Shown piece after piece: positions 11,484 through 20,787 of a stretch of 64,000 nucleotides of DNA (position 1 is the stretch's first letter; each line of letters begins with the position of its first letter). The notes under the pieces were generated by a model. The model worked only from the letters and a program-made list of their open reading frames with translations, did no database searches and was not told the DNA's origin. The translations under genes were made by a program, and so were the position numbers. Source of the DNA: Bacteroidales bacterium (GTDB lineage: Bacteria > Bacteroidota > Bacteroidia > Bacteroidales > UBA932). Location: contig JAFZUX010000007.1 in NCBI GenBank assembly GCA_017618115.1, positions 165,855-229,854 of the forward strand. The letters are read 5' to 3'.

Positions 11484-12740
11484 ATGCAGAAGTTTATTGA
11501 CACTTACAACTTTGAGGGCAAGAAGGTTATTGCCAGAGTAGATTTCAACGTTCCGTTGGACAAGGATTTTAAAGTTACGGATGCTACAAGAATTCGTGCA
11601 GCCGTTCCTACAATCAAGAAAGTGTTGGATGGTGGCGGAGCCATTATCCTTATGTCTCACCTGGGAAGACCAAAGGGAGTGGACGAGAAGTTCTCCCTTA
11701 AACATATCATTTACAAGGTAGAAGAGCTGCTGGGCGTTAAGGTTCTCTTCTGTCCGGATTGTATGAAGGCAGACCAGATGGCTAAGGATCTTAAGATGGG
11801 AGAGGTTCTTCTTCTTGAGAACTTGAGATTCTATGCCGAGGAGGAGGGAAAACCAAGAGGATTGGCAGAGGATGCTTCAGATGATGAGAAGAAGGCTGCT
11901 AAGGCAAAGGTTAAGGAGAGTCAGAAGGAGTTTACAAAGCACCTGGCTTCTTATGCTGATTGCTACATCAATGACGCCTTTGGTACGGCACACCGCGCGC
12001 ACGCTTCTACAGCTCTGATAGCAAGTTACTTCCCTGAGGATAAGATGTTCGGTTACATTATGGAGGGAGAGATTAAGGCTATTGATAAAGTTGTTAAGAA
12101 TCCGCAGCATCCGGTTACCGCAATCATTGGCGGTTCTAAGGTTTCATCCAAGATAGGAATTCTTCAGAACCTTGTAGAAAAGGTTGACAATATGGTAATT
12201 GGCGGAGGTATGGCATTTACTTTTGTAAAGGCAAAGGGCGGAAAGATTGGTAACTCAATCTGCGAGGACGATCAGCTTCAGGTTGCTCTGGATATTCTTA
12301 AGGCAGCTGAGGATAAGGGAGTTAAGATATTCATTCCTAAGAGCGTTGTTTGTGCTGATAAGTTTGAGAATGACGCCAATACTCAGATTTGCCCAATTGA
12401 TCAGATTCCTGAAGGTTGGGAAGGAATGGACGGCAGCGCAGAGTTCCTTTCAGAGATTGAGGGCGTAATAATGGGCTCAAAGACAGTTCTTTGGAACGGT
12501 CCTATTGGCGTATTTGAGATGCCTAAATTTGCGGTCGGAACTCTTGAGATTGCAAAGACACTTGCAAAGGCTACTCAGGAGAAGGGTTGCTTCACCCTGG
12601 TTGGTGGAGGCGACTCCGTTGCCGCTGTTAACCAGATGGGTTATGCAGACAAAGTAAGCTACGTCTCCACCGGTGGCGGAGCAATGCTGGAATACCTTGA
12701 GGGTAAGGTTCTTCCTGGAATTAAGGCAATACTGGACTAA
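11484..12740 (+). CDS. pgk: phosphoglycerate kinase
   Basis: A 418-aa glycolytic kinase making ATP from 1,3-bisphosphoglycerate. Recognisable motifs are RVDFNVPLD near the start, the substrate-site [27 protein letters not shown], and the nucleotide-binding GGGDSVAA near the C-terminus. A roughly 20-residue acidic/Lys-rich insert (around [14 protein letters not shown]) is common in Bacteroidota. It converges on mgtC with a 4-bp overlap. Confidence 0.97.
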
Positions 12741-13366
12741 GAGATTTCTATCTTAAGTCCTTTAGATTTAGCAAGAAGATTTTCTGCAATATGCAGATAA
12801 TCTTTTTGTTTTATATGGAGTTCAAACAAAGATGCCGAGTCTGATACTGAGAAGTTCTTAATGTTATCTCCAATACCAAGCTCTCTGAAAATTGCAAAGA
12901 GTCTTGTAAGATCTTCCTGCTTCTCGGAAAGGAGAGAGATGGTGAGGATTTTTTCACCAACTCTTCTGGTGATGAAATGCATTGCCTCCAGACAGATTAC
13001 GGTAATCAGAGTTGCCGCAACCGCAAGCGTGTACATCTCTGAGCCACAGGTAAGTCCAATGGCGGCAGCTACCCAGAGACCGGCCGCGGTAGTGATACCG
13101 CGGACCGCATTCTTCTGGAAGATAATAACACCGGCACCTATGAAACCGATACCGGAAACTACCTGCGCAGCAACACGCGCTCTGTCATAAGTGGTATCTC
13201 CAAAAGCGAATTGAGAAACTACCATAAAAAGTGCCGAGCCGAGAGCCACAACAAAGTGGGTTCTCAATCCCGCCTCTTTTGCCCTCATTTCTCTTTCAAA
13301 TCCAATAAGTCCGCCTAGAAGTCCAGCTATGAAGATTCTAAGTATAAAATTCCATTCAATTGTCAT
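12737..13366 (-). CDS. mgtC: MgtC/SapB family membrane protein
   Basis: A 209-aa protein with four to five N-terminal membrane helices and an ACT-like cytosolic C-terminal domain. Family motifs are [30 protein letters not shown] and TTAAGLW. In Salmonella MgtC restrains ATP synthase and stimulates PhoR-dependent phosphate uptake, which fits the neighbourhood. It is the last gene of the minus-strand phosphate-linked run, 21 bp after the DASS transporter. Its role here is inference. Confidence 0.92.
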
Positions 13367-13387
13367 AATGCCGTTGTTTTTAATATT

Positions 13388-14962
13388 TTAGAAAAATCCA
13401 GGGGTGTAACCGAACCAATGCAGAACGGTCTGTCCCCAAAGTAAAATTACCAGCCAGCTGATAAACATCATGGTGATACCAAACTTAAATGTATCGCTCC
13501 AGCTGTATTGGTTTGTGGTATAGAGCAGTGCCGCAGGCTTGCTGTTGAAAGGCAGCACATATACGTGGCCTACAAGCATCGCGATAGGGAAGGCCAAACT
13601 CATAATCGGATAGTTGAAACTCTGCGCAACACCTATGGCGATAGGTACAAAGATAAGTGTCTGCATCGTTTTACTTTGGAATATGAGGGCGCTCAAAAGC
13701 ATGGTGCTTGTAAGTATCATGTACAGAGCCCAGTACGGTGTGTTTGCAGTTATCCCGATAGATGCAAAGGCAGCATTTACCGCAGTGCCCGGAAGTCCCG
13801 TTGCATCCAGTCCCGCACCGAGCGTATAGGCGCCGGCGGAGAAGAGCAGCAGGTGCCAAGGGATATCTACGTCATTCCACTTGACAACGCCGATCTTTGG
13901 CATCAGAGCCACAACGGCTCCGATGAATGCCACTGCCGTCTGGTTAATTCCGTGCTGTTTGTCCGTTGCCCAAAGTATGAGCACACAGAGGAAAATTGCA
14001 ATTGCTCTGAACTCCTCTCCCTTCATCTTGCCCATAGCGTCCAACTCCGTCTTCAACCTCTCCATACCTCCCGGAATCTGAGGCTTTTGCTCATCCTTCT
14101 TCATTGGGAAAATAACTTTTGTACCAATAAACCAACCAATGAAGATAAGGAGCACGCTCATAGGGAAGGCGCACTTGAACCAATCCTGATAACTGAATGA
14201 ACCAATGCCGATTGCGCCGGCAATGAGTGAGCCTGCAAGCAGGGTTGCACCGGAACCGGTAAGGAAGGCGTTGGCTCCCAGGTTAATCTGGAATAGGTTC
14301 TGTAACATGAGGTTACGTCCAAAGTTGTTTCTCTTCTCTCCTCCGGTGGCGCCGTAAATGGCACAGATTACCATCATTATCGGGAGCAGTATGGCAGCCT
14401 TTGCGGTAGTAGCCGAGATAAAGGCGGAAAGCACCAGATTGATGATGATAAAACTGAATATGACTCCACCGGCATTCTTTCCGAACTTGAGTACGAACCA
14501 CAGAGCAAAACGCTTGGCTACCTGAGTTTTAACCAGCATTGAGGCCAGAACGAAAGAGAGTATGTTCAGCCACATTACAGGGTGACCCAATTGAGCGTAA
14601 GCGGTTTTATCCGTGGTAATTCCGGTAAGCACAATACCAAGGATAACGATCAGTGAAGTTAGGTAGTTTGGAACAGCCTCCGTAATCCAGAGAATTATGG
14701 CTGCCACAAATATGGCCAGCATTGCATAGTTGGCCCTGATGAACTGAGCCAGACCGAGATCGTTAAAACGCTTGAGCGCACTTCCGGAGAGCGACTCCGT
14801 GTCCAGATGCTCCAGGAAAGGAATTTTTACAACATAATAAAGGAGGATGAACACCAAGATGGCGAGAGGCCCGCCGAAGCGCTGCATAGTCCGCTCAAAG
14901 CCGGATTTTTGCATCTTCGGCAGCTTCTCGATCTTGTAGTTGTTCATATCAAGAACATCCAT
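13388..14962 (-). CDS. SLC13/DASS-family sodium:anion symporter
   Basis: A 524-aa inner-membrane carrier with about 11-12 hydrophobic spans. It has the family's ITEAVPNYLTSL segment near residues 93-105 and the late HVYVLPFNSKP segment typical of DASS (SLC13) transporters. Members move dicarboxylates, sulfate or, in yeast Pho87/90/91, phosphate. The substrate cannot be deduced from sequence; the context (DUF47, porin O/P, CYTH, MgtC) makes phosphate a reasonable guess. The start ATG overlaps the CYTH stop by one base (TAATG), so the two are coupled. Confidence 0.88.
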   Translation of the reverse strand: MDVLDMNNYKIEKLPKMQKSGFERTMQRFGGPLAILVFILLYYVVKIPFLEHLDTESLSGSALKRFNDLGLAQFIRANYAMLAIFVAAIILWITEAVPNYLTSLIVILGIVLTGITTDKTAYAQLGHPVMWLNILSFVLASMLVKTQVAKRFALWFVLKFGKNAGGVIFSFIIINLVLSAFISATTAKAAILLPIMMVICAIYGATGGEKRNNFGRNLMLQNLFQINLGANAFLTGSGATLLAGSLIAGAIGIGSFSYQDWFKCAFPMSVLLIFIGWFIGTKVIFPMKKDEQKPQIPGGMERLKTELDAMGKMKGEEFRAIAIFLCVLILWATDKQHGINQTAVAFIGAVVALMPKIGVVKWNDVDIPWHLLLFSAGAYTLGAGLDATGLPGTAVNAAFASIGITANTPYWALYMILTSTMLLSALIFQSKTMQTLIFVPIAIGVAQSFNYPIMSLAFPIAMLVGHVYVLPFNSKPAALLYTTNQYSWSDTFKFGITMMFISWLVILLWGQTVLHWFGYTPGFF

Positions 14963-15432
14963 TACTTCCAGTTCTTGTACGGGTTCTTCATTAACATGGA
15001 GTTGTAATACTTCACATCTCCGGTTACCTCCTCACCCAACCACTCAGGTTTGTCAAAAGCCTCATTCTCGCTTCCGAGCTCAACCTCGGCAACAACCAGT
15101 CCGTCATTGTCTCCGTAGAACTCGTCTACCTCGAATGTGTGCTCTCCGGCTTTAACCAGATAGCGGGTCTTGTCTATAACGCCGGGCTCGCAGATCTTCA
15201 GAAGATCCTGAACCTCAGCAACAGGAATCTCTTTCTCCCACTCAAAACGGCTTGCTCCGCTGTCGGAACCAATACCCTTTATTGTGATGAAACCCTTCTC
15301 TCCCTTTACGCGTACGCGAACGGTTCTCTCAGGAATAGAGCAGAGGTATCCCTGGGTGATACGGGTTGCTTTGAAAGCGGCATCCTTAAAGTTGCCCTTT
15401 ACCAAAAATTTGCGTTCGATTTCCTGTGCCAT
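14962..15432 (-). CDS. CYTH-domain protein, probable inorganic triphosphatase
   Basis: A 156-aa triphosphate tunnel metalloenzyme. The signature EIERKF is at residues 4-9, the Arg strand TVRVRVKG and the Lys strand FITIKG line the tunnel, and acidic pairs (FEWEKEI, FEVDEF, VAEVEL) can bind metal. The length and the C-terminal KYYNSMLMKNPY match bacterial short CYTH proteins such as NeuTTM, which hydrolyse tripolyphosphate. It sits 2 bp after a second possible tunnel-fold gene and is coupled by TAATG to the DASS transporter. Confidence 0.9.
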   Translation of the reverse strand: MAQEIERKFLVKGNFKDAAFKATRITQGYLCSIPERTVRVRVKGEKGFITIKGIGSDSGASRFEWEKEIPVAEVQDLLKICEPGVIDKTRYLVKAGEHTFEVDEFYGDNDGLVVAEVELGSENEAFDKPEWLGEEVTGDVKYYNSMLMKNPYKNWK

Positions 15433-15434
15433 AA

Positions 15435-16073
15435 TTATTCGTTTGCTAGAGGTTTGTCACTCATTCCAATAACACGCTTGATAGCCTGCAGATAGTTGAT
15501 ATTCTCAACACCCTCAAGACCAACGTCTTTGATAGTCTTCTTAATATCCTCAATCTCTGTAGACTCGGAGTTGATGGTAACCACCTTTGCACCGTTGATA
15601 AGCACGTTACCAACCTCGCAAATAGTACCGTTTACCATATAACCGAAGCGCTGCTTGTGAACGCGCACTGCTGCAAGGTCCGGATTAGCCTTTACCATCG
15701 CGATGAACTCATCAAAAGTATAGGTATCCTTTGTAAGAGCCGGCATCTCTACCATGAAAGCAGGAAATACTTCTTTCTCAAGAACTTCCTTACTGATAGG
15801 GAATTCACCCTTCATCAAAGGATTCCACTGCTCCAATCCGTCTACGCTCTGGACAAATGTCTTGATGTCCATTTTGCCGTCACGAATCTTTGTATTGTTG
15901 ATGTCGTTCTTCTTAGAGATGATATAAATCTCATCGCTCTCTCTCTCCCAAACCTTCTCTGGTACAGGGGCTGAGAGGCGTGCCATTCTCTTATGAGCCT
16001 CACAGAAACACTGACCGAAACTGCGGAACTCAAAACGAGGCTTGCTTATCTCACCAATTTTTAATTCTCCCAT
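15435..16073 (-). CDS. uncharacterised protein, possible divergent triphosphate-tunnel fold
   Basis: A 212-aa soluble protein with no signal peptide. I do not recognise a named family. It opens with a charged strand PRFEFRSFG, continues with ESDEIYIIS and TKIRDGKMDIK, has a middle GLEQWNP segment, then RVHKQRFGYMVNG and ICEVGNV, and ends with ENINYLQAIKRVIG. Alternating basic and acidic strands in that order are what a CYTH/VTC-type tunnel would look like, and the next gene is a clear CYTH protein 2 bp away. The fold assignment is inference. A later internal Met (near residue 31) could also be used. Confidence 0.6.
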   Translation of the reverse strand: MGELKIGEISKPRFEFRSFGQCFCEAHKRMARLSAPVPEKVWERESDEIYIISKKNDINNTKIRDGKMDIKTFVQSVDGLEQWNPLMKGEFPISKEVLEKEVFPAFMVEMPALTKDTYTFDEFIAMVKANPDLAAVRVHKQRFGYMVNGTICEVGNVLINGAKVVTINSESTEIEDIKKTIKDVGLEGVENINYLQAIKRVIGMSDKPLANE

Positions 16074-16099
16074 ATTTCTGTGTTTTAGTAAGTTAATAA

Positions 16100-16927
16100 T
16101 TATTGAAGACCGGTTACAGGGTCTGAAGTATCGTTAGTGTTCTTTGCACCAGGGGTAGCGGTAGTGTAGTACCACTTACCTGATCCGTCAGGAACGCGGC
16201 TGTAAGATGCAGGAGCAGTCTTAGCTACTGTTACAAGGTTGAAGTCATCCAAATCCTTCTTAACAGGATCTGTAAGCTGTACTCTTACGGCTTTCTTTGC
16301 AGAGAGACCTGAAGTGAATACGAGCTCAGGATCATAACCCTCGTGCTTTCCGCCGGCACCTACAACATCCTCGCTGTAGAGGAGAAGGTATGCACCTGCT
16401 GCAAGTTCACGGTTAGGACCTGTCCATACATCCTTGGTATCCTTGAAGATCTTTATACCCTTAATGTTGATAGCTTTGCTACCTGTGTTGATAATCTCAA
16501 TAAACTTGTCGTTTCCGTTGATCTCATTGAGTTTCAAAGGAGTAAAGTCAATAGGAATTACACCTACTGTGTAAGATCCTTCAGAAGAAGTGGTTGTACC
16601 ACCCTTGGTCTTTGCTACTACGTTGTAGGTAACAACGGTACCCATTGCCTGAGCAGGGATAACGCCTGAGTAAACGTTAGAAGCACCGGTCATCTTAACT
16701 GTCTGAGCAGCACCGCCGCCAACCTTGTAAACAAGATTAACCTCTTCAACTGTAACGAAAGCGGTAACTGTTGCAGTAACTGTTACATCATCAAGCTCGT
16801 TATAAGCTATGGTGTTGGAAATATTTGAAATTGCAGGGAATGGATATACATCGTCCTTAACACAAGATGTGAAGGCAAATACCATTGCCAAAGCAGCTAT
16901 TATAAACTTTTTCATAATCCGTGACAT
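16100..16927 (-). CDS. lamin-tail-domain (LTD) lipoprotein
   Basis: A 275-aa lipoprotein. A second ATG at codon 5 gives a cleaner signal peptide with lipobox FTSC, so the true start may be 16915. After an Ig-like stretch (residues ~30-125) comes a lamin tail domain (about 130-265) starting LKLNEINGNDKFIEI and containing the LLLYSED and SYSRVPDGSG segments. LTD modules are often found with secreted nucleases, phosphatases or surface anchors. It begins just after the porin stop (2 bp with the upstream ATG), so it is probably a surface or periplasmic partner of the porin. Confidence 0.85.
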   Translation of the reverse strand: MSRIMKKFIIAALAMVFAFTSCVKDDVYPFPAISNISNTIAYNELDDVTVTATVTAFVTVEEVNLVYKVGGGAAQTVKMTGASNVYSGVIPAQAMGTVVTYNVVAKTKGGTTTSSEGSYTVGVIPIDFTPLKLNEINGNDKFIEIINTGSKAINIKGIKIFKDTKDVWTGPNRELAAGAYLLLYSEDVVGAGGKHEGYDPELVFTSGLSAKKAVRVQLTDPVKKDLDDFNLVTVAKTAPASYSRVPDGSGKWYYTTATPGAKNTNDTSDPVTGLQ

Positions 16928-16929
16928 TT

Positions 16930-18300
16930 TTAGAAGTTAATCTCAAGACGAACGCTGATCATATTGTAGTCTACACCTGCCTTGCCCTTCTTCTCAACAA
17001 CCTGAGTGTAGTCCTTTGTAGGTTTGCCGTCTGCATCGTGACCAACGAAGAGTTTGCCCTTACCGTTAGCATATCTGTCATTGTTGTTATGCTGGTAGTT
17101 AATCATAAACTTAACGTTGTTGTAGATCCACCAGTTGAGTCCGATTGTGTAAGCCTCTGCAGAACCACCGTAAACGGTCTTGCTGTTGAGGTCACAATAC
17201 TCGTAACGTCCTGCAATCTCAAGGTCTCCCCATTTGCGGCCGTATCTTACCTTGGTGTACTTGCCACCGTTAGCATCGTAACGCTGTGAACCACCGCAGA
17301 GAAGGTAGCTTGCCTGAATGTATCCACCGCCAAAGTTCTTTACTGCATTATCTGCAGCGGTTTTCTTAAAGTGAACGTTGTCACCAATCCAAGCCATCTC
17401 ATAACGGAGTCCCTGCCAGTGACCTGCTAACTCAACAGTCCAGAGCCAGTTGTGGTCAAAACCAGGAAGGTTGTCTGTATCAAGATATTTCTTACGGTTG
17501 ATGCTTGTGGAGTTACGTGCGCTTGCGCGGTACATTCCCCAAGCACTAGGCTCTACGCTTGTAAGAGCTCTGCGGTAAGATGCTGCAAAGCCGATGTGAA
17601 GGCTTGCGTCCTGAAGTTTGTAGAGAGGGCGGAAAACAACCTTGGTTGTGATGGAGTAACCAGCATCACGGCCGTAATCCTTGTTGTTGTCTGCAACGTT
17701 TGTCCACTCTTCACTTCCTGCAACCTCCTGAGAGAAAGCGCCTATTGATCCCCAGAACCACTTGTCTGCATATTTTGCATTGATACCGAGGTGACGGGAA
17801 GGAGCCAATGCTGAAGTAACCATAGGTCTCTCCATGAACATCAGGTAACGAGAAGAGGTGTTACGCTGCATAGAGAAGTTCTCCTTAAAGTTACCGGCCT
17901 GGAGTTCCAGATTCTTAACACCGGTGTAACGAACAATAGCGTCCTTAAGTTCAACAAGACCGTTTGCGAGGTCCATATCGAACTCTCCGTACCACTTATT
18001 GGTTACCTGTGCCTTAACGGCGAAACGAGCACGGCGGATGCTTACTCCGTTGCCGATCTGATCGTAATCTTTGCTGTTCTTTCCAAAGAATACGGCTCCG
18101 TCAACTTGTGCACGTCCGTCAAACCAGAATTTGTAGCCACTCTTCTGTGACTCAAACACTGTAATACCGTCCTGAGCCTCAACATCCAGAACATCTGAAT
18201 TAACTGCGACTCCGTACTGGTTGCGTTTTACGTTTTCCTGGGCAAATACCGCTCCGAAAGTGAGCAGTAAAGTAATTGCCAGCAATAATGTTTTTCGCAT
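16930..18300 (-). CDS. porin O/P family (phosphate/polyphosphate-selective porin-like)
   Basis: A 456-aa outer-membrane barrel with a signal peptide ending near AVFAQ. The Porin_O_P signature is present: GVSIRRARFAVKA, EFDMDLANG, LELQAGNFKENFS and the MERP segment, with a final strand ending in phenylalanine (VRLEINF). Pseudomonas OprP/OprO bring phosphate and polyphosphate across the outer membrane; many Bacteroidota members are uncharacterised. It lies 26 bp after the HTH fusion gene and 2 bp before the LTD lipoprotein, which supports a phosphate-linked role. Confidence 0.85.
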   Translation of the reverse strand: MRKTLLLAITLLLTFGAVFAQENVKRNQYGVAVNSDVLDVEAQDGITVFESQKSGYKFWFDGRAQVDGAVFFGKNSKDYDQIGNGVSIRRARFAVKAQVTNKWYGEFDMDLANGLVELKDAIVRYTGVKNLELQAGNFKENFSMQRNTSSRYLMFMERPMVTSALAPSRHLGINAKYADKWFWGSIGAFSQEVAGSEEWTNVADNNKDYGRDAGYSITTKVVFRPLYKLQDASLHIGFAASYRRALTSVEPSAWGMYRASARNSTSINRKKYLDTDNLPGFDHNWLWTVELAGHWQGLRYEMAWIGDNVHFKKTAADNAVKNFGGGYIQASYLLCGGSQRYDANGGKYTKVRYGRKWGDLEIAGRYEYCDLNSKTVYGGSAEAYTIGLNWWIYNNVKFMINYQHNNNDRYANGKGKLFVGHDADGKPTKDYTQVVEKKGKAGVDYNMISVRLEINF

Positions 18301-18326
18301 AGTAATTAATTGTTTGGTTAAGTGTA

Positions 18327-19934
18327 TTAAATTGATTTAATGAATGTTATAAGGTTATCGCTGCGTCTTAAGCCCAATTTGGATCTAAGTCTGTAGCGGT
18401 TAATTTCTACGCTCTTTGGTGTAATGCTCATAAGTGAGGCAATGTACTTGCTTGAAAATCCTTGTCTTAGAAGGGTTGCAAGTTTTCTCTCATTCTCAGT
18501 AAGATGAGGGAAGGCCTCCATCAGTCTCATATTAAAGTCTTTGTGGAGTTCCTCGCTGCGGGAGTAGAAGTCGTTCATCTCTCTGGTGAAGTACATTCTA
18601 TCGTGAAGAGACTTAAGCAACTCCTCCGTGCGGGCGTCCTTCTCCGCGCCGTCCTTTGTTGAGCGCACAATCTTCAATTGGTCAAAGACGCTCTCCATAT
18701 AGTTTTTCTGCTCGCTTATTCCCATTGCAAAGTCTACCAACTCTTTACGCTTGTTTTCCAGCTTGTTGAGAAGATCTTTCTCCGTCATTTCCGCTCTTAC
18801 CTCCAGTGCGGAGAGAGATTTCTGTGTTGAATAGGAACGCTGCTGCTGAGAACGCAATATCTGTTTGTTGAGATTGTTCTTGTTCTGACGGCGTACAAAG
18901 AACATCACTCCGCCAACTGTGAGGAATATTCCCAAAACTATTACGGTTCCAAGTATCTCTCTGTCTAAAATCTTTCCGAGGCAGAAAGAGAAAAGCAGTG
19001 CCAAAATAGGTGAGAGATAGGTAGTTACGATGCCCTTTATTATCTCCGGTCCCTCGGTAAGAGTTCTCTTGCTGAAGATGCTTATGCCTGCAAGTGAGGC
19101 AATGAAGAGCGTTCCTGCAGGAAGCGGAGTTGCTCTCAATCCTACATACTGCGGAAGCGGAGAGGTGAATAGTGCAAAGCAAACCAAGAGTCCCATCATC
19201 AGTGAGAGTATGGACTGAGGGTTAGTATCCAACTCATAATCTGCAATATCCCACTTGTCTCTGTTAATACTGCGTGCTACAAACGGCATCAGAACTATAA
19301 CCGCACCAGCTGCAATATATGGAGCAAGAGTTTCATATTCAGACGGCAAATAGGTGAATATCATAGAGTTGTTGAGAGCTGCCGCAGGAATGAGCAGCAG
19401 CGCAACTATGGTTGCCAGTGAGAGCATTCTAGCCTCCGTCTTTGCAAAGTGTTTATTTCCTCCTCTCTGCATAAGGGCAAAGAGAAGGTAGAAAGTGGCG
19501 GAGATAAAGGCACAGAATAAAGGAGCCGCAATCCATGAGAGGATATACGGCATAGACTCCTTAAATGTTATGGTATCTCCGTTTGCCAGTCCCAATCCGG
19601 CAATTGCTGCTATAAAGGCAAACGGAACCGCAACAAAACGGCTCAGTTTCCACATAATTGCTGCGGTAAGGGCGGTGGCCATTCCCACGGGGAGTATGTT
19701 GGCTACAGATTTTGGAGAGAGAAGTCCCTCCGTCATCTGAGCAAAATATTCAGGATAGAAGCAAGGAAGTATAATTCCTGCAATTAACAAAAGAGGGGCT
19801 GCTACTCTTATAAAAATCCTCTCTCCGGCTCCGGAAGCCAGTACGCTGCCACCTATATATGGATAGTCCATCAGCATCAGGGCTGAGGCGGCAAGTAGCA
19901 AAGAGATGATAATATATAAGAGAGTAATATCCAT
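18327..19934 (-). CDS. PiT-like membrane domain fused to coiled coil and LuxR-type HTH
   Basis: A 535-aa protein with three parts. Residues ~1-345 are ten or so hydrophobic spans; segments such as SWIAAPLFCAFISATF resemble the conserved PiT (PHO4) phosphate-carrier core, although the GANDVANA-type signature is missing. Residues ~350-450 form a charged coiled coil. Residues ~475-535 are a LuxR/GerE-type helix-turn-helix (LTENERKLATLLRQG, ITPKSVEINRYRLR). The layout suggests a membrane-embedded one-component regulator that senses a ligand with a retired transporter. It is coupled by TAATG to the upstream DUF47 gene, a usual partner of PiT carriers. The HTH is secure; PiT ancestry is moderately supported. 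Confidence 0.75.
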   Translation of the reverse strand: MDITLLYIIISLLLAASALMLMDYPYIGGSVLASGAGERIFIRVAAPLLLIAGIILPCFYPEYFAQMTEGLLSPKSVANILPVGMATALTAAIMWKLSRFVAVPFAFIAAIAGLGLANGDTITFKESMPYILSWIAAPLFCAFISATFYLLFALMQRGGNKHFAKTEARMLSLATIVALLLIPAAALNNSMIFTYLPSEYETLAPYIAAGAVIVLMPFVARSINRDKWDIADYELDTNPQSILSLMMGLLVCFALFTSPLPQYVGLRATPLPAGTLFIASLAGISIFSKRTLTEGPEIIKGIVTTYLSPILALLFSFCLGKILDREILGTVIVLGIFLTVGGVMFFVRRQNKNNLNKQILRSQQQRSYSTQKSLSALEVRAEMTEKDLLNKLENKRKELVDFAMGISEQKNYMESVFDQLKIVRSTKDGAEKDARTEELLKSLHDRMYFTREMNDFYSRSEELHKDFNMRLMEAFPHLTENERKLATLLRQGFSSKYIASLMSITPKSVEINRYRLRSKLGLRRSDNLITFIKSI

Positions 19935-20593
19935 TAAAGAGCTCTTTTTATGGTCATTACAGAGAGTTGCTCAGCCACCTTTACAGCCGCTTTGGCCAGA
20001 TCTTCAATGTGGAGGGCAAAATAACGCAGGTGGAACTTCTCACTGAGTTTGAGGTTATCCATATTGTGAAATACCGTACGCTTGATTGACTGGCTCACTC
20101 TAACGGCCTCTTTCTCATAGAAATAGACCTGTGCGGTAGTTTCGGATACGCTCTTTGGGGAGGTGAAGTAAGCCTTGGTTGCAGGGATTGTATTCTCTGC
20201 CGCCATTGCTGCCAACTCGCTGAGTTTCACAAATTCACGCTTAAGTTCATTAGGAATTCTAGGAGACTCTATCTCAAACTGAATAAGGTCTGTGCTGATA
20301 ATCACAAAAATATGATCCAACCGCTCCAACAGACGCATGATGTCTCCTCTTGAACGAATAAGGTAGCCCCTGGAATAGAGCATGTTCTCTATCTCTCTGG
20401 TCTTGGAGGAGGCGTCGCTCTCCAAGGTTACCATCTTTCCCAAATTCTCCGTAAAACTATCCTCATCATCGTAAAGATAGTTCTTTACACCCTCTTTGAA
20501 GACTATTAAAGCGGCGTCTACGGTCTCCAGCAGGCAGCTTACAGACTTTTCAAGCCTATCTGATTTCCTGGAAAAAATTTCATTTAACCCCAT
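19934..20593 (-). CDS. DUF47 / PhoU-like phosphate transport accessory protein
   Basis: A 219-aa all-helical cytosolic protein. The opening MGLNEIFSRKSDRL and the acidic/helical pattern (EIENMLYSRG, LLERLDHIFV) match the DUF47 family, distant PhoU relatives usually encoded beside PiT phosphate transporters. It is the first gene of the minus run down to mgtC and its stop overlaps the next start by one base. A -7 box lies about 30 bp upstream. Confidence 0.85.
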   Translation of the reverse strand: MGLNEIFSRKSDRLEKSVSCLLETVDAALIVFKEGVKNYLYDDEDSFTENLGKMVTLESDASSKTREIENMLYSRGYLIRSRGDIMRLLERLDHIFVIISTDLIQFEIESPRIPNELKREFVKLSELAAMAAENTIPATKAYFTSPKSVSETTAQVYFYEKEAVRVSQSIKRTVFHNMDNLKLSEKFHLRYFALHIEDLAKAAVKVAEQLSVMTIKRAL

Positions 20594-20621
20594 AGCGTAA
20601 CTCTACATTGTTATTTGAATA

Positions 20622-20629
20622 CAAATATA
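20622..20629 (-). promoter_or_regulatory. -7 box of the DUF47-to-mgtC run
   Basis: On the minus strand this reads TATATTTG, matching TAnnTTTG, 28 bp before the DUF47 ATG. An inverted copy of TGTAGAGT lies between it and the start codon (20600-20607), and another copy sits upstream at 20657-20664. The latter pairs with TCTAC at 20678-20682 to form a small dyad. Confidence 0.6.
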
Positions 20630-20699
20630 CATTAATAGAGTCATATTTAAACCATATGTAGAGTTTAAATATATAAATCTACGCCGCCTAATGCGTATT

Positions 20700-20787
20700 T
20701 ATAGAGATTTTGTAGGGTGCTTGTAGAGTTTTTTGAGAGGTTTTTGAGGGCTATTTGAGGTGTTTTAAAAGTCTATTTGAGAAGTTT
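20700..20787. repeat. 11-bp-phased direct repeat array, about 8 units
   Basis: Read on the plus strand, units begin at 20700, 20711, 20722, 20733, 20744, 20755, (20766, degenerate) and 20777. Examples are TGTAGGGTGCT, TGTAGAGTTTT, TTGAGAGGTTT, TTGAGGGCTAT and TTGAGAAGTTT. The period is exactly 11 bp, one helical turn. The array fills the gap between the DUF47 promoter and the SGNH gene and runs into the last codons of the latter. It could be a multi-site operator, as 11-bp phasing is seen in Pho boxes, or a chance low-complexity tract. Confidence 0.6.

Follow-up and report, generated by a model that had tools for sequence, protein, structure and literature searches.

Eight closely packed minus-strand genes of a Bacteroidales bacterium (GTDB lineage Bacteria; Bacteroidota; Bacteroidia; Bacteroidales; UBA932) raise the question of whether they act as one unit and, if so, what that unit handles. 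They occupy positions 12737..20593 of the window, by which we mean the whole stretch of 64,000 nucleotides analysed (GenBank assembly GCA_017618115.1, contig JAFZUX010000007.1, positions 165,855 to 229,854 of the forward strand). A first-pass annotation made from the letters alone had regarded them as an integrated phosphate/polyphosphate system. On balance, we read them as a self-controlling operon that would capture and hydrolyse short-chain inorganic polyphosphate (tripolyphosphate or similar) and handle the phosphate released. The genes, from first to last, are:

19934..20593, minus strand: DUF47/PhoU-like accessory protein (PF01865), operon gene 1; Pfam DUF47/PhoU_div 30.7 bits, cut-off 24.4.
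18327..19934, minus strand: PiT-LuxR, proposed regulator in the membrane, with a degenerate PiT membrane domain (residues approximately 1-340), a coil (345-465) and a LuxR helix-turn-helix (HTH) domain (466-535).
16930..18300, minus strand: porin O/P family outer-membrane porin (PF07396); Pfam 131.1 bits, cut-off 20.9.
16100..16927, minus strand: LTD protein (lamin-tail domain, PF00932); Pfam 40.8 bits; the lipoprotein label comes from the first-pass annotation.
15435..16073, minus strand: P5, a protein without a family, with no Pfam or NCBIfam match.
14962..15432, minus strand: CYTH/triphosphate tunnel metalloenzyme; Pfam CYTH 58.3 bits, cut-off 23.2.
13388..14962, minus strand: DASS/SLC13 anion transporter; Pfam Na_sulph_symp 191.5 bits.
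12737..13366, minus strand: MgtC family membrane protein, the last gene of the operon; Pfam 134.5 bits, cut-off 31.4.

The window translations placed all eight open reading frames (ORFs) at the positions first assigned to them, and the tight spacing with two overlaps was reproduced: from DUF47 to MgtC the intergenic distances are -1, 26, 2, 26, 2, -1 and 21 bp, no gap exceeding 26 bp and two junctions overlapping by 1 bp. Among the profiles suggested for checking, PF01865, PF07396, PF01928 and PF02308 scored above their cut-offs, whereas PF01384 (PHO4) reached 31.7 bits in PiT-LuxR, just under the cut-off of 33.7; GerE matched the same protein with 29.0 bits, above its cut-off of 23.5. A protein search with PiT-LuxR provided 31 loci, referred to here as the rumen clade, from Bacteroidales or Bacteroidia metagenome-assembled genomes whose titles are mostly ruminant. 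All eight genes were present in the same order and on the same strand in 20 of the 31 loci, contig ends cut nine, and the order was held in all 31 as far as the contigs reach. No MgtC match was obtained in two loci (L038 and L039), profile search included; two others (L043 and L053) carried one additional gene between CYTH and DASS, and in L045 DASS was called as two overlapping pieces. Seven genes flanking the operon in the window were searched for in the clade: they were found on both sides in L033 and L035, on the single available side in L034, and on neither side of the remaining 28 loci. The mean pairwise identity within the clade was 0.95 for P5, 0.89 for CYTH, 0.78 for DASS, 0.76 for the porin, 0.75 for DUF47, 0.64 for MgtC, 0.54 for PiT-LuxR and 0.52 for the LTD protein. 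P5 is the most conserved protein of the operon, with no pair in the clade falling below 0.90.

The same arrangement was found far outside this clade. Among the 295 genomes of the order that were searched, at least 15 contained a PiT-LuxR confirmed by its neighbourhood, namely the genome of the window, G224 and 13 others. The order DUF47, PiT-LuxR, porin, LTD, P5, CYTH, DASS was complete in 12 of the 14 distant Bacteroidales loci (G224 and 11 of the 13), the remaining two (L135 and L138) being cut by contigs. An additional gene of the SdiA-regulated type preceded P5 in L139 and L146, and in L134 a stop codon splits PiT-LuxR. Within the phylum, P5 was found in 13 of 395 genomes, including that of the window. 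In the 12 other Bacteroidota loci CYTH was adjacent to P5 in 11, DASS came next in the same 11, and DUF47, PiT and porin also followed in 10 (the DUF47 of L088 is a short piece). A set of P5, CYTH and DASS lacking PiT and DUF47 was seen in L079 and again on a Citrobacter freundii plasmid, where the order is LysR regulator, CYTH, P5, SLC13/DASS and a further protein, here called X. The gene order is widely kept and not specific to one strain; its conservation in rumen-clade and distant loci bears out the single operon proposed at first, and that the eight genes form one conserved operon is well supported.

The eighth position is the variable one. MgtC was absent after DASS in all 10 distant Bacteroidales stretches that extend more than 200 bp past DASS, and in six of these (L077, L178, L181, L182, L183 and L186) DASS was directly followed by X (485-488 amino acids); a weak MgtC-profile match (16 bits) was located upstream of the cassette in L137. 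Many relatives thus have X in the eighth position, and the rumen clade of the window has MgtC, so that the membership of MgtC, as originally suggested, applies to the latter group. X (485-492 amino acids overall) is a recurrent neighbour of DASS, both in Bacteroidota and on the Citrobacter plasmid, whose copy shares 28% identity with X of G224 and L079; in L079 X lies between CYTH and DASS. The copies are L077 11664-13127, L178 2804-4261, L181 2522-3982, L182 4462-5928, L183 3940-5406, L186 3570-5036, L079 7030-8505, L093 11258-12718 and L146 8206-9684. The two copies scanned against Pfam (L077 and L079) gave no match, and PHROGs gave no useful match. A protein of the SdiA-regulated/phytase-like type was also observed beside LTD proteins or between CYTH and DASS (L083 1539-2318, L139 1967-2737, L043 15355-16185 and L053 15337-16134), and the LTD protein itself reaches 812-821 amino acids with five lamin-tail stretches in L136 (8070-10508) and L137 (8042-10507).

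What, then, controls the operon? PiT-LuxR combines approximately nine hydrophobic segments (simple hydropathy scan) with a C-terminal LuxR HTH, the architecture of membrane-spanning LuxR regulators. The hallmark of PiT transporters is a duplicated GANDxAN / GANNxAN signature. Among 13 distant fused ORFs longer than 450 amino acids, 11 had both copies, which were absent from all 30 clade members, as well as from L077 and L146, in a count that leaves out L134 (split by the stop codon) and L058 and L063 (truncated at the start). Ten unfused PiT ORFs were also compared; for the six with a late called start the comparison was limited to the second signature, and the first signature was not found in L086. 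The mean identity in the clade was 0.43 for the membrane part, 0.66 for the coil and 0.85 for the HTH. Hence the early description of a PiT-like protein fused to a LuxR HTH was right as to the fusion and the HTH, while the PiT signatures proved to be gone in the clade. Because they have been lost, the PiT domain of the window clade is better read as a putative sensor than as a transporter. In a midpoint-rooted FastTree of the coil and HTH, which took in the C-terminal piece from L134, the clade grouped with L077 (support 1.0), and these joined the distant fused proteins except L146 (0.96), apart from other coil-LuxR proteins. The PiT-LuxR-like protein of L146 fell with those other coil-LuxR proteins, which is why its fusion may have arisen separately.

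A different set of regulatory genes accompanies P5 outside Bacteroidales. In 11 of the 12 other Bacteroidota loci, all but L079, P5 is adjoined on the other strand by genes for a PhnD-like substrate-binding protein, a histidine kinase and a sigma-54 response regulator; the assignment rests on Pfam for all three in L083 and for one in L078, and on BLAST matches to L083 in the rest, the third gene of L082 lying outside the stretch. In the fetched DNA this trio was missing from all 14 distant Bacteroidales stretches, extensions included, and from all 31 rumen loci (E limit 1e-8), and it was likewise not found in the window (1e-3). Since the trio stands beside P5 in other Bacteroidota and is missing from the Bacteroidales stretches, PiT-LuxR looks like its replacement in Bacteroidales, and it is probably the operon's own regulator.

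The region upstream of DUF47 contains the following candidate elements:

20700..20728, minus strand: candidate operator array, with CTCTACA at 20722-20728, CCCTACA at 20711-20717 and CTCTATA at 20700-20706; 11-bp period.
20657..20663, minus strand: promoter-proximal CTCTACA, whose first base lies 34 bp upstream of that of the -7 box.
20622..20629, minus strand: TATATTTG, candidate Bacteroidota -7 box, judged against the TAnnTTTG consensus.

The Bacteroidota -7 consensus is TAnnTTTG, and a start 34 bp above the TATATTTG box places the proximal CTCTACA near -42, the usual position of a class II activator. The motif was first spotted by eye and later checked on loci outside its definition set. 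CTCTACA was present upstream of DUF47 in all 15 non-redundant regions, which together contained 32 copies of C[TC]CTACA, while 500 shuffles averaged 0.43 copies and reached at most 3. Its density was 14.1 per kb in 29 upstream regions, a set without L047 (short) and L058 and L063 (no DUF47), compared to 0.26 elsewhere; in the distant Bacteroidales set, which is independent of the motif definition, the values were 4.8 and 0.14 per kb. For a slightly looser motif, 31 of 33 spacings deviated by no more than 1.5 bp from multiples of 10.9 bp, the period having been picked once the spacings were known. In the genome of the window the exact double motif has a single occurrence, at the operon promoter. 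From this phased upstream motif and its position, the LuxR domain of PiT-LuxR is predicted to bind the CTCTACA array directly and to activate the operon. An inverted copy, TGTAGAG, lies at window positions 20601-20607, just before the DUF47 start, and was also seen in L033, L034 and L035 (95-97% relatives).

The substrate is suggested mainly by P5. On a Cupriavidus plasmid P5 is fused to a Ppx/GppA phosphatase (PF02541, E 8.5e-47), and in G308 (L081, the 12th of the other Bacteroidota P5 loci) it adjoins one. The strongest indication that P5 acts on phosphate chains, or on similar phosphoanhydrides, comes from this fusion and adjacency, which also support phosphate chains as the likely substrate. 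The proposal that P5 might be a tunnel-fold protein gained no support from profile comparison. Its alternating charged residues appear CYTH-like by eye, but a paralogy with CYTH was rejected after two rounds of hhalign that gave no signal above controls, the second with the CYTH set enlarged by 15 rows (14 of 30 loci and Citrobacter, 16 loci not being included). Pfam results for P5 contained no CYTH match, and PHROGs gave no useful match. L146 (482-1786) has two P5 genes in tandem, which belong to different subtypes.

The window CYTH, the sole CYTH match of its genome, retains the ExExK motif (E4-x-E6-x-K8). Its only matches among solved structures at E values up to 0.01 were 3typ (uncharacterized) and 2fbl (NE1496), at E values of approximately 1e-20, and the latter we take to be NeuTTM. 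In the alignment Y29 and K52 pair with positions 29 and 53 of the 2fbl chain, which correspond to 28 and 52 if the chain has one extra residue. NeuTTM is the specific tripolyphosphatase of Nitrosomonas europaea, with the catalytic residues Tyr28 and Lys52 (available text of PMC3440374). The window CYTH would accordingly resemble NeuTTM as a triphosphatase. As for DASS, the hairpin motif SAT was found in 44 of 45 rows (PAT in L088) and SKT in all 40 rows covering the site, five rows being too short. In an alignment the Na/citrate cotransporter has SNT and SNV at these positions; the window DASS lacks the SN(T/V) expected in both hairpins of a carboxylate-type carrier. Because SAT and SKT replace SNT and SNV, its substrate is probably not a carboxylate. 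The phosphate/polyphosphate theme of the first-pass annotation is well supported, with further backing from the fusion and adjacency of P5 and Ppx/GppA, the NE1496-like CYTH and the PhnD-like sensor gene.

Taken together, these data are consistent with the following scheme. The porin O/P and the LTD protein would act at the outer membrane, the substrate entering through the porin. In the cytoplasm, CYTH and P5 would act on phosphate chains, as homology, fusion and neighbours suggest, and DASS, whose binding site differs from that of carboxylate carriers, would move the anion or its product. PiT-LuxR, together with DUF47, would sense the phosphate status at the inner membrane, and its LuxR domain, bound to the helically phased array, would activate the operon from approximately -42, both binding and sign being predictions. 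In distant relatives the PhnD-like protein, histidine kinase and sigma-54 regulator would do the sensing and PiT would work as a normal transporter. Within Bacteroidales, it is the transporter that would have become the regulator, with transport signatures subsequently lost in the window clade.

Several observations weigh against this scheme. PhnD-like proteins also sense other oxyanions, and a heavy-metal two-component pair lies approximately 4 kb from the Citrobacter cassette. Three of the 14 distant Bacteroidales upstream regions (L077, L139 and L143) contained no motif copy, and when one mismatch was allowed the double motif was counted 31 times in the genome of the window versus 28 for the reversed control. 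The hhalign probability for P5 and CYTH was 0.3%, no better than controls (narrow profiles, Neff approximately 2-2.5), and the nearest solved relatives of DASS are named dicarboxylate and citrate carriers. The genome of the window (89% complete) gave no PPK1 or Ppx/GppA match, so an intracellular source of polyphosphate is not evident; PPK1 was present in 21 of 26 other genomes bearing P5 or PiT-LuxR. In addition, E. coli ygiF, also a CYTH triphosphatase, adds little to the hydrolysis of tripolyphosphate (PPPi), according to the available text of PMC3440374.

The alternatives have to be judged against the same evidence. That the operon serves orthophosphate homeostasis only, tuning the uptake or release of inorganic phosphate (Pi) while CYTH clears stray PPPi and no polyphosphate is imported, appears unlikely, although it deserves serious consideration. 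PiT, DUF47 and MgtC would suit Pi or ATP balance, and the lack of a PPK1 match points in the same direction. The yeast DASS carriers Pho87, Pho90 and Pho91 move Pi (available text of PMC7381174), and a proofreading role has been proposed for NeuTTM-type enzymes (available text of PMC3440374). Such a role does not account for P5, the most conserved member, being tied to Ppx/GppA, or for the cassettes of L079 and the Citrobacter plasmid, in which P5, CYTH and DASS travel without PiT and DUF47. It is rather improbable that the phosphate family names mislead and that another oxyanion (phosphonate, phosphite, an arsenic or a sulphur oxyanion) is handled. The PhnD-like sensor belongs to a family that includes phosphite, arsenite and tetrathionate sensors, and the unusual DASS site and the heavy-metal pair near the Citrobacter cassette could be read in this way; nevertheless, the annotated part of the neighbours included no recurrent oxidase, reductase, lyase or resistance gene, and Ppx/GppA and CYTH enzymes act on phosphoanhydrides (for CYTH see also the available text of PMC3440374).

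We regard it as very unlikely that PiT-LuxR of the window clade is still a phosphate transporter with the HTH as a minor add-on. The partial PHO4 match, the intact signatures of most distant fused ORFs and the lack of another PiT match in the genome of the window would fit; the signatures are, however, missing throughout the clade and in L077, the membrane part is far less conserved than the HTH, G224 has a separate PiT with a full-length match, and the genome of the window has an NptA-like carrier. A housekeeping PiT beside the second DUF47 of this genome (L090 7574-9494, C20) was ruled out, the neighbour being a Na/H exchanger. A chance cluster of unrelated genes has a negligible probability, as the order is conserved across families and phyla and nothing was found in its favour. 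We retain the capture and hydrolysis of short-chain polyphosphate as the preferred reading. Only tentatively can it be extended to a dedicated and so far undescribed bacterial pathway for the use of tri- or short polyphosphates that pairs the new family P5 with Ppx/GppA or CYTH and is run by a transport-dead phosphate receptor of the membrane that binds DNA directly, evolved via an intact fusion of transporter and transcription factor.

In the open-licence PMC literature we found no description of the operon, P5 or the PiT-LuxR fusion. The available text of PMC8115612, on phosphorus use by plant-associated Bacteroidetes, contained no word starting with lamin or triphosphat, and the available main text of PMC13170248 none starting with LuxR or fusion. 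The cellular role of tripolyphosphate and short polyphosphates is an open question, and it is likewise unclear what NeuTTM-type triphosphatases are for (available text of PMC3440374). The operon, in which a NeuTTM-like enzyme is joined by a porin, two proteins of carrier type, a nearly invariant partner and a dedicated putative sensor, would make that question directly testable. In addition, the series from unfused PiT through intact to degenerate PiT-LuxR would illustrate cleanly how a transporter can turn into a transcription factor.

With regard to known systems, the window CYTH has the same size as NeuTTM, as far as PMC3440374 is available and with 2fbl taken to be that protein, and keeps the ExExK motif and the catalytic Tyr and Lys. 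It sits in an operon of transport and regulation, whereas NeuTTM was compared by protein alone. Pho87, Pho90 and Pho91 are DASS carriers that move Pi in yeast, which has a polyphosphate polymerase, but they bear SPX domains (available text of PMC7381174), and their likeness to the window DASS is one of description, not of alignment. PitA with its PhoU-like accessory regulator PitR pairs, like the operon, a PiT carrier with a PhoU-like protein; PitR acts on the PhoPR two-component system (available text of PMC13170248), while the PiT partner in the operon has its own DNA-binding domain, and DUF47 is likened to PitR only as a PhoU-like protein. The LuxR regulators DadR, HcdR and CadR of Eggerthella lenta, with 10-12 transmembrane segments, activate enzyme genes and share with PiT-LuxR a polytopic N-terminal membrane domain, a C-terminal LuxR HTH and metabolic gene neighbours (available text of PMC9734109). 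PiT-LuxR differs from them in the PiT-derived membrane domain, the coil region in between, the phylum and the existence of extant fused relatives that carry both transport signatures.

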